DNA of 42,544 bases, taken from Candidatus Agathobaculum merdipullorum. GTDB taxonomy: Bacteria; Bacillota; Clostridia; Oscillospirales; Butyricicoccaceae. The translations under genes and the position numbers were made by a program. The stretch lies in NCBI GenBank assembly GCA_019115185.1, contig DXDZ01000026.1, positions 1 to 42,544 on the forward strand, in the 5' to 3' direction. Below are positions 1,289 to 7,576 of this stretch, piece by piece. The notes below the pieces were generated by a model. The model had not been told where the DNA came from. It made no database searches and was given only the letters and a program-made list of their open reading frames with translations. The first letter of the stretch is position 1. Every line of letters begins with the position of its first letter.

Positions 1289-3064
1289 TCATGCCACACC
1301 GCTGCCGATGCCCAGTGCATCCAAACGCGTCTGCTCAACCTCGATGGCATCCTCGCCCCACATATAGAAGATATCGTCAGTCGCGTCAGTCACAGTGACC
1401 TTGCCGCCATCCAAAATGCAGGTAAAACGTCCCATCCTGCGCGGCTCGGTCGGCTTGAGCGTGGTAAATTGCACACGACCGTCTGCCAGCAGGTTCACCT
1501 GATCCAACAGCAGACTTTCCTCCGGCAACACGGGCAGCAACTGCTCAGTTGTGCCATCCGGCAGGATACGCATCAGCGTGTCGCCTGTGCGCATCATGAC
1601 TGCGCTTTCTGAGTAAGCCACAAAACGGCTGCGGTCGTGCGTGACGATCACATAGCTGTCATCTGCCGGGTTGTGCGTATAGTCATAAGTCGGCAAGTCT
1701 GTGATTTGCGTCAGGATGCCATCCTGCTCCTGATACAATCCAGCGCTTCCCCAAAGGTATACATCGTTATATGTTTTCAGAGAAGGCGCAAACGCCATGC
1801 GCGCATCATCCTCCGGCGTCGGATAGGTCAAATTGTTATTCGGCACGGTGATGGAATCAATTGGCTGACCATCCGCCGTCCATGTGCAGATTGCCGTCCG
1901 CTCGGTCGTGACCGACTCGGTCACCAGCACACCGTTCGACCGTTCCATAAACACCTGCCCGTAAATATCCATTTGCCGGGCACCGTCCTCGGTCAATAGC
2001 CACCCTTGTGTCTGACCCAGCAAAAGCTGTCCATCCGTCCACGGCCGGAGTTGCCATTTGCCTTCCAATGTGATATCAGTCAACTGTACCGCGTTGTCCT
2101 TTATCTCCAAAACCGTCATCTTGTCTGGTTGGTTTTCCGGCCGTACACTAATATAGAAATAATCTGTACTTCCAACCCGGCACAAGTCGTAATAATTCGC
2201 ATCGCTGCCACAGGTATCTATCGGGACGAGCCGCATCGGCTCCATTTCGATCCGGCATAGTGTTTTTCCCTCATCGTATCCGCCAACCACCGCATAAACC
2301 GGCGGCTCATCATCGTTCAGCGTGCATAGACTAACATGCGCACCTGTTTTTACCGATTCCACCGTGACACCCGCCGTCATATAACATATCTCGGAATCAG
2401 CGTCCTCGCCAGAACACAGATAGTCAAACGGCAGCACATTTTGCGCCGCGTTTTTTAGCTGTGCCACAGTGAATACGCTCTTGTCAATCAACACTTGTGC
2501 AACTGATTTTTCTTGCTCATTGCCGCCCTTTTGATAGTTCTCACGGAGCAGCCGAACAGATAGCGAAACCGCGTCACCCCGGACAAAGCCCGTCGCATCA
2601 CACCGCTCTTCCTCGTTTTCTCCAGATCGGAGCAACCAGGAATAATAATCGTAGTCTGTCGAAGCGCGCGCCAGAAACGTGCAGTACTGTCCACAGGTAA
2701 CATTCTTTGCTGCACCGTACTGAGTTTCCGCAATACCCTTTGTCAACCCATTTTGGTACAGCCAGCCGACATATTGGTCCGCCCACTGCGGCACATCGGT
2801 GAATGGGTGTTCCCACTCCCCTGCCAGCGCGGTTTCTTCGGCACCGAGAAACCGCGTGAGCATTGCGGCCGCCTCGGCGCGTGTCATGGGCTTTTCAAGT
2901 GCAAAGCCTTTGTCCGTTCCGCGGAACAGGCCAAGATCGCACAACATCTGCGCCTGCGCCTCGGTGTCTCCCGGATAGCCGTTGTCAATCGTGCCGACGT
3001 TCGCCGCCCCGGCAGCGAACGTCAGCATCATGCAAACAAAACAAACAGAAACCAGCTTTTTCAT
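1289..3064 (-). CDS. Secreted SLH-domain protein with propeller-like C-terminal region
   Basis: 591-aa exported protein, probably held on the cell wall by its S-layer homology region. ATG 3064 is supported by GAAAGGGG upstream and begins a clear signal peptide (MKKLVSVCFVCMMLTFAAGA). SLH-like repeats follow at about residues 30-150: PMTRAEAAAMLTRFLG, then FTDVPQWADQYVGWLYQNGLTKG. Residues from about 200 to the end consist of short beta-strand repeats (many W, Y, G turns such as WLLTEDGARQMDIYGQVF), resembling bacterial DUF5050-type propeller proteins; I cannot assign a ligand. It lies 64 bases downstream of thrS in the same direction, with no terminator seen between them, so read-through is possible. 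A second SLH protein lies at 5225-6943. Confidence 0.82.
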   Translation of the reverse strand: MKKLVSVCFVCMMLTFAAGAANVGTIDNGYPGDTEAQAQMLCDLGLFRGTDKGFALEKPMTRAEAAAMLTRFLGAEETALAGEWEHPFTDVPQWADQYVGWLYQNGLTKGIAETQYGAAKNVTCGQYCTFLARASTDYDYYSWLLRSGENEEERCDATGFVRGDAVSLSVRLLRENYQKGGNEQEKSVAQVLIDKSVFTVAQLKNAAQNVLPFDYLCSGEDADSEICYMTAGVTVESVKTGAHVSLCTLNDDEPPVYAVVGGYDEGKTLCRIEMEPMRLVPIDTCGSDANYYDLCRVGSTDYFYISVRPENQPDKMTVLEIKDNAVQLTDITLEGKWQLRPWTDGQLLLGQTQGWLLTEDGARQMDIYGQVFMERSNGVLVTESVTTERTAICTWTADGQPIDSITVPNNNLTYPTPEDDARMAFAPSLKTYNDVYLWGSAGLYQEQDGILTQITDLPTYDYTHNPADDSYVIVTHDRSRFVAYSESAVMMRTGDTLMRILPDGTTEQLLPVLPEESLLLDQVNLLADGRVQFTTLKPTEPRRMGRFTCILDGGKVTVTDATDDIFYMWGEDAIEVEQTRLDALGIGSGVA

Positions 3065-3128
3065 ATACCAAGATCCCCTTTCGGTATATCGACAGGTAAA
3101 CGGCTGCGTCTGCAATGGTAAATAAACC

Positions 3129-4883
3129 TTATCTCAGTTTTTCTTTCACTTCATAGGTCAGCTTCTCAATGAACTCGGACAACTCCATCGGCGTGGTCTC
3201 GCCGGTCTTGCGCTCACGCACAGAAATAATGCCCTTTTCCTCGTCCTTGTCACCGATGACAACCATATACGGCACCTTATGCACCTGTGCTTCGCGGATC
3301 TTATAGCCGATTTTCTCGTTGCGGTCATCCATGGTGACGCGGAAACCGGCCGCAGTCAACTGATTGACAACCTCCTGCGAGCACGGAATGTTGCGGTCGG
3401 TCATCGGCATGACGCGCACCTGCTCCGGTGCGAGCCAGGTCGGGAACGCACCGGCAAAGTGCTCGGTGATGACGCCGATGAAGCGCTCGATCGAACCCAG
3501 TACAACGCGGTGAATCATGATCGGACGATGCTTCTCGCCATCCGCACCGATGTACTCGAGTTCAAAACGCTCCGGCAGCTGGGAATCCAGCTGGATCGTG
3601 CCGCACTGCCAAGTACGGCCGAGCGAATCGGCCAGATGGAAGTCCAGCTTCGGGCCATAGAATGCACCGTCGCCCTCATTGATCGTGAAGGGCTTGCCCA
3701 GCTCGGTGATCGCTTCCTTCAGGATGTCCTGATTGTGCTCCCACTGCTCAACCGTGCCGATGTGGTCCTCCGGCATGGTAGACAGTTCGATCGTATAGGT
3801 CAGGCCAAAGACCGAGTACACTTCGTCAAACAGCTTGACGACGTTCTTGATCTCATCCTTCATCTGATCGGGCGTCATGAAGATATGCGCATCGTCCTGC
3901 GTGAAGCAGCGCACACGGAACAGGCCGTGCAATGCGCCAGACAGCTCATGGCGATGCACCAGACCCAGCTCACCAACACGCAGCGGCAGCTCACGATAGG
4001 AGTGCGGCTGAGACTTGTAAACCAGCATGCCGCCCGGGCAGTTCATCGGCTTGATGGCAAAATCCTCATCGTCGATCACCGTGGTGTACATATTCTGCTT
4101 GTAGTGATCCCAGTGACCGGAACGCTCCCACAGCTTACGGCTGAGGATAACCGGGGTGGAAACCTCAACGTAACCATAGCGCTTATGCACCTCACGCCAG
4201 TAGTCAATCAGTGTGTTCTTGAGCGTCATGCCGTTGGGCAGGAAGAACGGGAAGCCCGGGCCTTCCTCGGTCAGCATGAACAGGCCAAGCTCCTTGCCAA
4301 GGCGGCGATGATCGCGCTTTTTGGCCTCTTCCAGCATGTTCAGGTATGCGTCCAGCTCATCCTTCTTCGGGAAAGCCGTGCCGTAAATACGCTGGAGCAT
4401 CTTGTTTTTGCTGTCGCCGCGCCAGTATGCGCCGGTGACGTTCATCAGCTTGAGGCCATTGCCCTTGACGCGGCCGGTCGAATCCAGATGCGGGCCGGCA
4501 CACAGATCGGTAAACTCACCCTGCTTGTAGAACGAAATGGTTGCGTCCTCCGGCAGATCGTCAATCAGCTGCACCTTGTACGGCTCGTCCTTTTCCTCCA
4601 TCAGCTTGCGGGCTTCCGCACGCGGCAGCTCAAAGCGCTCAAGCGGCAGCTTTTCTTTGCAGATCTTCTTCATCTCAGCTTCGAGCGCATCCAGATTCTC
4701 CTGCGTGAAAGAGAACGGTGCGTCAAAATCATAATAGAAGCCGTTTTCAATCGACGGACCGATTGCGAGCTTCACTTCCGGATACAGGCGCTTGACCGCC
4801 TGCGCAAGAATATGCGATACCGTGTGACGATAGGTGTCGCGGTATTCCGGGTTTTCAAACGTGTACTTGTTGTCTTCGGACAT
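3129..4883 (-). CDS. thrS: Threonyl-tRNA synthetase lacking the TGS domain
   Basis: Charges tRNA-Thr. 584 aa, about 60 shorter than the E. coli type, because it starts directly in the editing domain: HTVSH (His20, His24) and CAGPH (Cys128, His132) form the N2 editing/metal site, and the usual N-terminal TGS domain is absent. The class II core follows, with zinc-ligand regions KPMNCPGGM, CFTQDDAHIF and PIMIHRVVLGSIERF, and a C-terminal anticodon-binding domain (APEQVRVMPMTDRN onward). ATG 4881-4883 is preceded by AGGAGG. An in-frame extension upstream crosses the leader terminator and has no support. Expression is controlled by a T-box (4919-5180). Confidence 0.97.
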   Translation of the reverse strand: MSEDNKYTFENPEYRDTYRHTVSHILAQAVKRLYPEVKLAIGPSIENGFYYDFDAPFSFTQENLDALEAEMKKICKEKLPLERFELPRAEARKLMEEKDEPYKVQLIDDLPEDATISFYKQGEFTDLCAGPHLDSTGRVKGNGLKLMNVTGAYWRGDSKNKMLQRIYGTAFPKKDELDAYLNMLEEAKKRDHRRLGKELGLFMLTEEGPGFPFFLPNGMTLKNTLIDYWREVHKRYGYVEVSTPVILSRKLWERSGHWDHYKQNMYTTVIDDEDFAIKPMNCPGGMLVYKSQPHSYRELPLRVGELGLVHRHELSGALHGLFRVRCFTQDDAHIFMTPDQMKDEIKNVVKLFDEVYSVFGLTYTIELSTMPEDHIGTVEQWEHNQDILKEAITELGKPFTINEGDGAFYGPKLDFHLADSLGRTWQCGTIQLDSQLPERFELEYIGADGEKHRPIMIHRVVLGSIERFIGVITEHFAGAFPTWLAPEQVRVMPMTDRNIPCSQEVVNQLTAAGFRVTMDDRNEKIGYKIREAQVHKVPYMVVIGDKDEEKGIISVRERKTGETTPMELSEFIEKLTYEVKEKLR

Positions 4884-4918
4884 AATGGTGTTCCTCCTTT
4901 TGTTTTTGCGGGGAGAAC

Positions 4919-4956
4919 AAAAAAGCCCACCCCCGACATTCAATCAGGGGTGAGCT
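4919..4956 (-). terminator. T-box-controlled intrinsic terminator of thrS leader
   Basis: Hairpin pairing AGCTCACCCCTGA with TCGGGGGTGGGCT on the minus strand, followed by a U run. It overlaps the 3' side of the T-box antiterminator and ends about 35 bases before the thrS start. Confidence 0.88.
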
Positions 4957-5180
4957 TATACTAAACCCACGGTTCCACCCTGCTTGCAAGCCCATTTGGG
5001 GCTTACCGCTCTGGAGTCCGTAACGTGGACAAAGCGCCGCGGCATACTGTGTTTTTCCGCCGCAGAGCTCAGGAATCGGTGCCGCTTTGCCCACACCTGC
5101 GAACGCTCCCAGCCACGTCGTCCGCTCTCTTACAGGTGCTTTGGGGTATCTGCGGGATTTCCTTCATCGCCTTTTGCAAT
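4919..5180 (-). promoter_or_regulatory. T-box leader (tRNA-Thr sensing) upstream of thrS
   Basis: On the minus strand the leader has an AGAGAG motif near 5125-5130 in stem I and a specifier region reading GCACCGATTCCTGAGC, putting an ACC (Thr) codon at 5078-5080. It ends with the T-box core AGGGTGGAACCG (4969-4981), immediately followed by the terminator. The ACC specifier agrees with the downstream gene. Established mechanism: uncharged tRNA-Thr stabilises the antiterminator. Stem I limits are approximate. Confidence 0.9.
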
Positions 5181-5224: not shown

Positions 5225-6943
5225 TTATTCCGCATTTTCATACCGCCCGACAAAGAACAGCTCCCCATTGTTGTTGTCGCGGATGACAAACCAGAATGGG
5301 CTGTCCGCAGCAAATTCCCGCACCAGTTCCGGTCGGTCAGGCATCGCGGCTCCTGCACCATCCATCGCAGCGGTGACCGCTGCGGCCTCGGTACCCTTTT
5401 CATCCACCGCAATGTAAGTCTTTTGCAGCACGGTATCAAGGAAAAACTGTCCGCCCGGCAGGCCGGTCGGATCAAGCATTGCGGTTAAGTCGGCTTTTTC
5501 GTGGTCATAGGCAGTCTTAATGCCCATTGCCTGCAAAGCATCGTCCAGCGCTGCGCCATATTCCACCTTGAATTTTGGAACAGAAACATTCACATCGCCG
5601 TAAACAAATTCCGCGCTATCCAACAGGTTTTGTACGTCTATTGTATCATCCGCCTTGATCAGATACATGCTCAGATCCGCATCAATAAAGCGTTCAAACC
5701 CATCTCCATCCACATTGTCAACCGCATAGTTGCGATAATCCATCTTGAGCGCCTCGACGCCCGGCGTCGAATAGTAGCCGAAGCCATTTGTCTGGTGCAT
5801 CATATCGACTGTGCCGGTCGTGCCGTCCGCATCTGTAAAATCGGCTTTATCGGTTTGGTCCTCAGGAAACTCATTTTCCCATGCGGCCTTGAAATACACT
5901 GCGTTAATCAACGCAGTGACAAACTCGCGGTTATCCTCGGTCAGGATGGTTGGGATTTTGCCATTGGTCTTTTCATTCGCCCATGCGTTCACGCGCTCGA
6001 CCGAATCCGCATTTGTGACCTCTTCGACTGTCGCATGATAGCTTTCATCCATTGTTTTCACAAAGTTCGGCAGGAATGCACCCTTATCGTCGAACCAACT
6101 TTGGTTCAGCCAAACCGAGTTCGAAATCTGCATCGTCATGATGCGCTCCAGTCCAGAATAAAACGCATTCTGCTCTTGCGTAATCTGATTGAAAAGCTCC
6201 AGATCGTCAATCCGCAAAGCGTCCAGCAGTTCCGCTTGCGTTTCTCCCTTTGCGCCGTTTGCCAGCATCGCAAGGCACAGCCGTGCAGAATACGGTGAAA
6301 GGGTCCAGTTGCCTTCTTTCGGGGCTGCTGCACGAACGAATGCGTCAGCGAACGTGCCCGCTTCTTCCGGTGTCCAGTAGGCGCTTGCGGTCACAGCATT
6401 CGCGTTTTCAATCCACTGCGCCGCCTCTTCACCCGAGACCAAGTCGTTCGGCCGGAAATCCATCGCATCCTGCGTGTAGATTACACCATACATCCAACAC
6501 CGCATGACACTGTCCTGCGCCCACGGAGCAATATTTTCCATAGAGGGCGAACCCGTGCCACAGCCCGCGGGCAAAGCGGTATAGCGATAATCCAGATACC
6601 GGTCCAAAAATGCAGCGGCTTGCTGCCGTGTGATGGGGTCGTCTAACCGCAGCATGGCGCGCTCCTCCCCTGCGTCGTCACCGTTCAAGATCCACTTGGC
6701 AAACGCCCACTTGATGCCGTCGGATGCTTGCGTACCGTCCGCAAAATAATCCTCCATGTCGATCCAAGAGCTGCCTGTCACATCCTCACCCGAGGCGGAC
6801 GCAAGCTGCTCCAAAAACCAGCCGCGTGTCGCGGTTTTGGGTGCTGGGTTCATCATCGCCCGATCGGGTTCCTGCGCCGCCCCGGCACAAACTGGCAGCA
6901 GCAGACACAAACTGAGCACCATTGCTAAAATCCGTCGTTTCAC
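5225..6943 (-). CDS. Secreted SLH-serpin fusion (serine protease inhibitor)
   Basis: 572 aa. GTG 6941-6943 follows AAGGAGGG and encodes a signal peptide (MKRRILAMVLSLCLLLPVCAGA). Residues about 35-180 are SLH-like (DDPITRQQAAAFLDRYLD; IAPWAQDSVMRCWMYGVIY). Residues about 195-572 form a full-length serpin: LSPYSARLCLAMLANGAKG, ALINAVYFKAAW, and C-terminal SPFWFVIRDNNNGELFFVGRY. The hinge GTEAAAVTA (517-525) keeps the small residues that inhibitory serpins need for loop insertion. Standard spacing puts P1-P1' at Gly531-Ala532, with Ala/Gly/Met around it, suggesting an elastase-like target. Domain identity is seen; surface anchoring and target are inferred. Gut clostridia are known to make secreted serpins against host or microbial proteases. 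Confidence 0.92.
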   Translation of the reverse strand: MKRRILAMVLSLCLLLPVCAGAAQEPDRAMMNPAPKTATRGWFLEQLASASGEDVTGSSWIDMEDYFADGTQASDGIKWAFAKWILNGDDAGEERAMLRLDDPITRQQAAAFLDRYLDYRYTALPAGCGTGSPSMENIAPWAQDSVMRCWMYGVIYTQDAMDFRPNDLVSGEEAAQWIENANAVTASAYWTPEEAGTFADAFVRAAAPKEGNWTLSPYSARLCLAMLANGAKGETQAELLDALRIDDLELFNQITQEQNAFYSGLERIMTMQISNSVWLNQSWFDDKGAFLPNFVKTMDESYHATVEEVTNADSVERVNAWANEKTNGKIPTILTEDNREFVTALINAVYFKAAWENEFPEDQTDKADFTDADGTTGTVDMMHQTNGFGYYSTPGVEALKMDYRNYAVDNVDGDGFERFIDADLSMYLIKADDTIDVQNLLDSAEFVYGDVNVSVPKFKVEYGAALDDALQAMGIKTAYDHEKADLTAMLDPTGLPGGQFFLDTVLQKTYIAVDEKGTEAAAVTAAMDGAGAAMPDRPELVREFAADSPFWFVIRDNNNGELFFVGRYENAE

Positions 6944-7011
6944 AGTAATCCCTCCTTTTCTATTGTGTTTGGTTAGACGTTCCGCTTTGGAAACTGTTCC
7001 CTTCCAAAAGC

Positions 7012-7040
7012 AAAAAGCTCCCCGTGTTGGGGAGCTTTTT
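7012..7040 (-). terminator. Terminator after the YcxB-like gene
   Basis: Perfect 12-bp hairpin (AAAAAGCTCCCC, loop GTGTT on plus, GGGGAGCTTTTT) with A/T tails on both sides. It begins at the stop codon of the gene ending at 7040 and separates it from the serpin gene. Confidence 0.9.
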
Positions 7041-7576
7041 CAGCACTTGAGCGCTTCGTCCTTGATATTCACCGTAATCCGGTCATAGAATTCCTTTTTC
7101 TGCGTCTCATCGGCAAACGCAGAAAACGGCACGATAATGGCAGAAAACTCATCTACAAAAATATAATAATGTTTGTCATCCGACGCTGTACGCTGCACCG
7201 CCTCATACTGATATGTGGTGTCCTCATTTTCCCCGGCAAGTTCAAACGAATCATCCCGCAGCGTCAGGGTTTTCGGACCGCAAAGCTGTTTGTTGCGTGC
7301 ATTGCGCAAAATCCGCTCGGTGTTCTTAACCACTTTGCGTTTCATATACCACGGCGTACCAAAAAAACAAACCGCTGCAAGAACCAGATACACCAGTACG
7401 CTCCAAACGCTCAGACCTTTCACCCAGTACATCAAGGCCGTGCCGCCCAAAATCACGATCACCGCTGTCGCAATGCGCGTCATCAAAATGCTGCGCTGTA
7501 CCACTGCGTTGTTCACATAATAATTCAAATTAAAATCAATATAATCTTGCTGTGTAATGTCGTAATGCAGTTCCAT
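7040..7576 (-). CDS. YcxB-like membrane protein
   Basis: 178 aa, starting at ATG 7576 after AAGGAG. Two transmembrane helices lie near residues 32-75 (ATAVIVILGGTALMYWV; VLVYLVLAAVCFFGTPWYM). A soluble C-terminal domain follows with the pattern of YcxB-like proteins: LTLRDDSFELAGENEDTTYQYEAV, then YYIFVDEFSAIIVPFSAF near the end. Members of this family are mostly uncharacterised small inner-membrane proteins. It stands alone: a terminator follows, and 134 non-coding bases separate it from the MATE gene. The family call rests on the arrangement of two TM segments plus the YIFxDxxSAxIVP motif; no function can be given. Confidence 0.75.
   Translation of the reverse strand: MELHYDITQQDYIDFNLNYYVNNAVVQRSILMTRIATAVIVILGGTALMYWVKGLSVWSVLVYLVLAAVCFFGTPWYMKRKVVKNTERILRNARNKQLCGPKTLTLRDDSFELAGENEDTTYQYEAVQRTASDDKHYYIFVDEFSAIIVPFSAFADETQKKEFYDRITVNIKDEALKC

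Follow-up and report, generated by a model that had tools for sequence, protein, structure and literature searches.

The window, a 42,544-nucleotide stretch of a Candidatus Agathobaculum merdipullorum contig, carries a gene for a serpin with an N-terminal SLH-like module, and this serpin belongs to a widespread serpin clade with such modules, which we did not find described in the literature searched. Comparison with related genomes confirmed that the gene is real, conserved and correctly read in outline by an earlier sequence-only reading, whose interpretation as a whole was partly supported. On balance, we favor the view that the product is an inhibitory-type serpin, tethered to the wall by its SLH-like module, that probably shields the envelope from small-P1 serine proteases.

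A conserved, optional serpin gene at a fixed site beside thrS

The SLH-serpin gene begins with a GTG codon seven bases 3' of an AGGAGG motif and runs for 572 codons (Table 1); the sequence-only reading had placed it at the right coordinates without naming the strand. The proposed signal peptide proved signal-peptide-like when residues 1-22 were read directly: the segment ends in AGA, and a lone Cys near its end varies among aligned congeners. The claim of a full-length serpin held up in Pfam, where residues 199-570 cover positions 7-369 of the 370-position Serpin model (PF00079) at 244.6 bits against a cut-off of 27. The best PDB matches for the protein were 4ga7 (leukocyte elastase inhibitor) and 5ncs (listed as Serpin), with 5nct and 5ncw (listed as miropin) near the top of the match list. 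Because the frame, domain order, hinge and loop are kept in 14 full-length congeners, the window's included, the SLH-serpin is not a product of chance.

Table 1. Features of the SLH-serpin locus and of a second wall-module protein of the same genome
Feature	Position	Strand	Basis
YcxB-like protein, upstream neighbor	7040..7576	minus	Domain scan; synteny
Terminator-like hairpin (7-bp stem and T tail) in the YcxB-like/serpin gap	7012..7035	minus	Read directly; the pattern scan does not list it
SLH-serpin gene	5225..6943	minus	GTG start, 572 aa; orthologues found
Signal-peptide-like residues 1-22 (MKRRILAMVLSLCLLLPVCAGA)	6878..6943	minus	Read directly
SLH-like region, residues 36-190	6374..6838	minus	Pfam SLH at 136-175; alignment to relatives with clear repeats
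Serpin domain, residues 199-570	5234..6349	minus	Pfam PF00079, E 2.5e-72
Reactive center loop, residues 515-549; hinge EKGTEAAAVT	5297..5401	minus	Loop alignment
Predicted P1-P1', Gly531-Ala532	5348-5353	minus	Spacing rule
Promoter-like TTGACA-17-TAGTAT for thrS	5220-5192	minus	Pattern scan
thrS T-box leader, immediately 3' of the serpin gene	4943..5176	minus	Rfam RF00230, 73 bits (below the gathering score of 93), E 3.9e-16
thrS, conserved downstream neighbor	3129..4943	minus	Name based on sequence and synteny
Second SLH protein, 608 aa, downstream of thrS	1289..3115	minus	Pfam SLH, 32.2 bits
SLH-trypsin-like protein	G000:C48 514-2250 (L207 514-2253)		Pfam Trypsin_2 and SLH

Along the minus strand, the gene order is argB, argD, argF, MATE, YcxB-like, serpin, T-box leader, thrS and another SLH protein. 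An Rfam scan at the gathering threshold found nothing. The serpin gene looks like a single-gene unit, since a terminator-like hairpin precedes it and thrS is served by a T-box and a promoter-like site of its own.

Named relatives of the window comprise Agathobaculum, uncultured Agathobaculum and two records named only Eubacteriales, and Agathobaculum desmolans ATCC 43058 carries an orthologue. The serpin was detected in 15 of 25 genomes of the Agathobaculum-like genus, in 14 as a full-length gene and in one as two contig-edge pieces; in all 14 full-length loci a thrS frame lies no more than 1.5 kb downstream. Three genomes (loci L172, L173 and L174), of which two (G004 and G005) are closely alike, show a clean absence, with about 325 bases between the YcxB-like gene and thrS. 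In G019, whose thrS is about 98% identical, the contig extends 900 bases beyond thrS on the upstream side, and no serpin lies there; in G002 none was found in the 7.3 kb examined upstream of thrS. Given the 14 full-length loci with the gene beside thrS and the clean absences at that site elsewhere, the serpin is an optional gene at a fixed site. Its function is dispensable, as no serpin was found in 10 of the 25 genomes, five of them at least 96% complete.

A divergent SLH-like region in a host equipped for SLH anchoring

The SLH-like repeats proposed from the sequence stood in part. One of them, at residues 136-175, passes the Pfam cut-off (PF00395, 25.1 bits against 20.8) and is the sole repeat to do so; the remainder emerged from alignment to relatives, and the first is a half repeat. 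The alignment places a partial repeat 1 (TRG, Arg40) and a repeat 2 (ITRQ, Arg106) before repeat 3 (136-175), which has VSGE where TRxE is expected, and it suggests two and a half divergent SLH repeats in the window protein. Set against five SLH-serpins from outside the genus, the region corresponds to the second half of repeat 1 followed by repeats 2 and 3; those relatives align over a fuller repeat 1, of which the genus lacks the N-terminal half. Since the window protein falls short of three complete SLH repeats, we describe it as working like an SLH-anchored protein and do not class it as one.

Arg40 in repeat 1 and Arg106 in repeat 2, the TR arginines, do not vary across the alignment of the 14 congeners; nor do Gly88, Trp141 and a Cys pair. 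Repeat 3 has no such arginine; it carries Ser or Thr without Arg, and the same holds in four of the five aligned relatives. The Cys pair, C128/C149 (6497-6562, minus strand), flanks the third SLH-like repeat in all 14 congeners and in none of the five aligned SLH-serpins from outside the genus, and a C128-C149 disulfide is possible to judge from this pattern.

Profile searches recovered the region unevenly. At E values up to 1, a Pfam SLH match was obtained in 10 of the 14 congeners and none in the other four. A profile built from the genome's own SLH repeats scored 5.8 and 5.5 bits on the SLH-like region of the window protein, and two congeners (L003 and L054) had no match over 3 bits. Searched by itself against the PDB, the SLH-like region of the window protein hit no SLH structure; its top matches, cytochrome oxidase chains at E 0.02, were noise. 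The N terminus of a relative, L186, matched two solved SLH structures, that of Sap at E 2.2e-11 and that of SpaA at E 2.4e-4.

One congener bears on how the module evolves. Compared with the L002 orthologue (5728-7404), the serpin body of the window protein is 97% identical and residues 23-195 only 43%, and the L002 N terminus matches the SLH-like version of L048 at 85%. The module therefore differs as a unit and matches the version of a third congener, for which reason it appears to have been swapped between congeners by recombination rather than lost.

The host has machinery for SLH anchoring. Its genome encodes CsaB (TIGR03609, 218.5 bits against an NCBIfam cut-off of 213.1) and contains 46 SLH matches. 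The CsaB sequence is fused to an N-terminal glycosyltransferase part (L099 1273-3642, minus strand). In the portions of the sources available to us, SLH proteins accompany CsaB (PMC6801904), and the pyruvylated sugar in SpaA-type anchoring makes its contacts with a Trp, a Gly and the arginine of TRAE (PMC10628300). Wall binding is the weaker half of our finding. It is plausible in that Arg40 and Arg106 are kept, a relative matches Sap and SpaA, and the host has CsaB and an SLH repertoire; with repeat 1 truncated and repeat 3 devoid of the TR arginine, binding may also be weak or lost.

A conserved inhibitory hinge and a small predicted P1

The hinge at residues 517-525 (GTEAAAVTA), read earlier as an inhibitory pattern, bore up well, being conserved in the 14 congeners. 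Positions P17-P9 (EKGTEAAAV, with Val at P9) fit the inhibitory consensus ExGTEAAAA as given in the accessible text of PMC8233489, and residues 515-524 are identical in all 14 congeners bar one Thr518Ala. With pN/pS values of 0.026 for the hinge (515-525), 0.234 for the serpin body, 0.378 for the SLH-like region and 0.499 for P6-P2, all of which are comparative only because pS is near saturation (0.57-0.72), the hinge is the most conserved stretch measured.

Counting from P15 at Gly517 led us to the same predicted Gly531-Ala532 bond as the sequence-only reading, by the spacing rule. P1 is Gly in 14/14 congeners, including, by loop alignment, the two whose loop pattern was left unresolved; P1' is Ala or Ser in 14/14, and P2' is Ala in 13/14. 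Alanines at 525, 526, 530, 532 and 533 could serve as alternative cleavage residues. Beyond the bond, Pro535, Arg537, Pro538, Leu540 and Arg542 are invariant in the genus, with variable sites between them. The genus loop, which may have narrowed to G-[AS]-[AG]-x-P-x-R-P-x-L-x-R, could be fitted to one dedicated protease partner. The loop is also long: the distance from G to PF is 32 in the 12 resolved congeners, whereas the commonest length is 28 among 63 other serpins and 22 class SLH-serpins, and the five order SLH-serpins have 29-30.

Small residues at the predicted P1 recur outside the genus, so that the earlier claim of a small-residue bond applies more widely than it had been made. In 27 resolved SLH-serpins, from which L195 and L202 were left out for want of Gly at P15, P1 is Thr (10), Ser (9), Ala (4), Asn (2), Gly (1) or Met (1), and hence small (S/T/A/G) at 24 of the 27 predicted sites. 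The five SLH-serpins found later have S, G, S, S and G. Among the 63 other resolved serpins, P1 is G, A, S or T in 33 and Glu in 24, a contrast with the SLH-serpins that is only descriptive because the rows share ancestry. The loop pattern likewise failed to resolve two of the 24 class SLH-serpins, along with 12 other frames, several of which were fragments. As far as predicted sites go, a small P1 is common to the SLH clade, though not special to it. Two further patterns were noted: L202 and L195 have Asp or Glu at the P15 hinge position instead of Gly, which may alter inhibition, and the Glu predicted at P1 in 24 of the 63 other resolved serpins could reflect a protease target that prefers Glu.

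The SLH-serpins sampled fall in one clade across the class

Serpins are common in the order, being present in 184 of 394 genomes. We drew an order sample of 40 stretches from the family and order searches, picked mostly for long reading frames and not an even sample, and it yielded five SLH-serpins outside the genus (L088, L110, L113, L115 and L117); four were scanned and Pfam-confirmed. At the class level, an SLH-serpin profile matched 116 of 391 genomes at E 1e-60, and 24 of the 29 best class loci, the window's aside, carry SLH repeats. A further 20 stretches with 22 serpin frames added five, among them a weak case, L258, with a single repeat at 13.6 bits. In total, 34 SLH-serpins were found outside the genus and, with the 14 full-length congeners, 48 overall. 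They fall into 15 family-level groups of the class (f1, f3, f15, f19, f27, f30, f36, f42, f43, f44, f53, f55, f69, f76 and f101), and the earlier suggestion that SLH anchoring of a serpin is unusual thus found no support. We also saw serpins fused to a dockerin (L121 and L122) and to a bacterial Ig-like domain (L107). Since the class rows were drawn with the clade profile and other class serpins are under-sampled, other SLH fusions could exist.

The serpin domain of the window falls within a clade holding all SLH-serpins sampled. Seven fragments or duplicates were removed before the first serpin tree, and L121, on a long branch, before the quick tree of 116 serpin domains. In that tree a single group of 48 rows, at SH-aLRT 100, takes in all 43 SLH-serpins known at the time, and the SLH label changes at least three times. 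A more careful tree of 70 rows, which left out L116, L122, L121, L066, L042, L067, every second non-clade row and 10 of the 14 congeners, supported the SLH-serpin group at 100/99, with 38 rows inside and 32 outside. When 22 rows were added, the smallest clade holding the group comprised 58 rows and included all five new SLH-serpins; in ten of its rows, L250 on its long branch among them, no SLH repeat was detected. The support value read for this larger clade after re-rooting may belong to an adjacent branch and is disregarded here. As these trees are drawn, the SLH module is kept across one serpin clade with few changes. The genus forms one branch in the trees (support 100). A sister relationship of the genus to L088/L110, supported at 97 in the quick tree, appeared in only 18% of the careful-tree bootstraps, and we do not adopt it. 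Among up to 30 SLH-serpin loci, with flanks mostly of about 1.5 kb, no protein group recurred as a neighbor in more than three.

Discussion

The observed architecture, the conservation of hinge and loop, the CsaB gene and SLH repertoire of the host, and membership in one clade are best explained by a wall-tethered inhibitor. According to this explanation, the serpin would be exported and held at the wall by its N-terminal SLH-like module, bound to a wall polymer that is pyruvylated. The exposed loop would be attacked near Gly531 by a serine protease whose S1 pocket is small; as the acyl-enzyme pulled the loop into sheet A, the protease would become trapped at the cell surface. Such a serpin would most likely protect the envelope, and the other proteins anchored to the wall, against external serine proteases with an elastase-like preference, of host or community origin.

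A small P1 with Ser or Ala at P1' fits the preference of elastase-like enzymes, and the loop residues make a small-P1 serine protease the likely target. Ser, Thr or Ala at P1, as in the wider clade, also accords with an elastase-like specificity, but the invariant Gly of the genus is a poor P1 for neutrophil elastase, and Gly is unfavorable at P1 for most proteases. The organism is presumably a gut dweller, judging by its genus name. Elastase may be one candidate among the small-P1 targets, and it remains a guess because the cut sites of the siropins departed from the spacing rule. The siropins of Eubacterium siraeum (PMC5127057) are the nearest tested gut serpins in the literature consulted and resemble the window serpin in their inhibitory loop. 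Neutrophil elastase and proteinase 3 are inhibited by them and cut them at P3-P2 and P6-P5, in the predicted numbering. These cuts fall at Val residues, in contrast to the bond predicted for the window serpin; pancreatic elastase, trypsin, chymotrypsin and subtilisin were not inhibited, and the text makes no mention of an anchor, the cell surface or a signal peptide.

Other known systems share parts of the arrangement. In the cellulosomal dockerin serpins (C. thermocellum PinA, R. flavefaciens Doc-Serpin and C. clariflavum Clocl_3968), as the available parts of the sources describe them, a fused module likewise places the serpin on a surface complex, with a proposed role in protection from proteolysis; docking there is by a dockerin where the window protein has an SLH-like module, and PinA is reported to act against subtilisin-like proteases. 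The reactive bond of miropin is Thr-Ser, small residues as in the window serpin, although its source, Tannerella forsythia, is a Gram-negative oral organism, unlike our host. Miropin chains (5nct and 5ncw) were among the best PDB matches of the window protein, and the matched chains have no SLH module. With the SLH-anchored proteins Sap and SpaA, the window protein shares SLH-like repeats, two of them with TR motifs, in a genome that encodes CsaB; it differs in carrying a serpin as cargo and in its divergent repeats, the first of them truncated.

At the level of titles and abstracts in a mostly open-access literature, we found no description of an SLH-serpin, and neither a serpin superfamily paper nor a gut serpin review mentions the S-layer. 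Serpin passages in papers that the searches turned up dealt with dockerin serpins or did no more than name serpins; domain databases may well list the architecture already. Two human faecal records named Bacteriophage sp. (MT835777.1 11154-12401 and MT835510.1 32668-33687) encode serpin-like proteins of 24-28% identity, which are either phage-borne or on misassigned contigs.

Three other explanations deserve weighing. The serpins of the genus might be freely secreted, with an N-terminal region that is a degenerate SLH remnant and does not bind the wall. The single weak Pfam repeat, the half-missing repeat 1 and the repeat 3 without Arg would accord with this, as would the higher pN/pS of the SLH-like region than of the serpin body and four related serpins of family f76 that lack any SLH; we nevertheless consider it rather unlikely, as Arg40, Arg106, Gly88, Trp141 and the Cys pair are invariant in the 14 congeners and the module was apparently exchanged, not lost. 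That the protein does not inhibit proteases, or acts only as a substrate for them, and is retained for some other role, is improbable in our judgment: a Gly at P1, the long loop and the Gln that replaces His just before the hinge in the window protein and several congeners could be read in this way, but the hinge both fits the inhibitory consensus and is more conserved than any other stretch measured.

Alternatively, the target might sit on the same surface. The genome encodes a 579-aa protein with SLH (59.3 bits) and Trypsin_2 (77.5 bits) matches and triad-like motifs (GH, AD and GNSGG), which would stand on the same wall and so forms a rival candidate target; the serpin would then restrain a protease of its own surface and limit collateral cleavage. 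All 15 serpin carriers in the genus match this protein, and no subtilase (PF00082) that could serve as an own target was found in the host genome, which is 90% complete. However, every one of the 25 genus genomes has a match to the protein (in 24 through the protease domain, in G016 up to a contig edge before that domain), including the 10 without a detected serpin, so that the protein does not need the serpin; moreover, the two genes are found on separate contigs, C48 and C86. We know of no serpin that inhibits HtrA-like proteases. Taken together, we regard restraint of this protease as unlikely, and continue to favor a wall-tethered inhibitor of outside proteases.

The role of prokaryotic serpins is described as enigmatic in the available part of PMC8233489, and a clade of serpins with a wall module and a conserved small-residue loop provides a concrete class for testing envelope protection. 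Such testing is practical because a named culture-collection strain, A. desmolans ATCC 43058, has an orthologue. If the target were neutrophil elastase or proteinase 3, the window serpin would be a surface-bound counterpart of the siropins. More tentatively, the clade may be an old, class-wide one of wall-tethered serpins spanning at least 15 family-level groups, in which the reactive bond was kept small (mostly Ser/Thr/Ala/Gly before Ser/Ala). If so, its members would have a shared surface target or protease class, and the walls of many Clostridia-like bacteria would carry a standing layer of suicide inhibitors.
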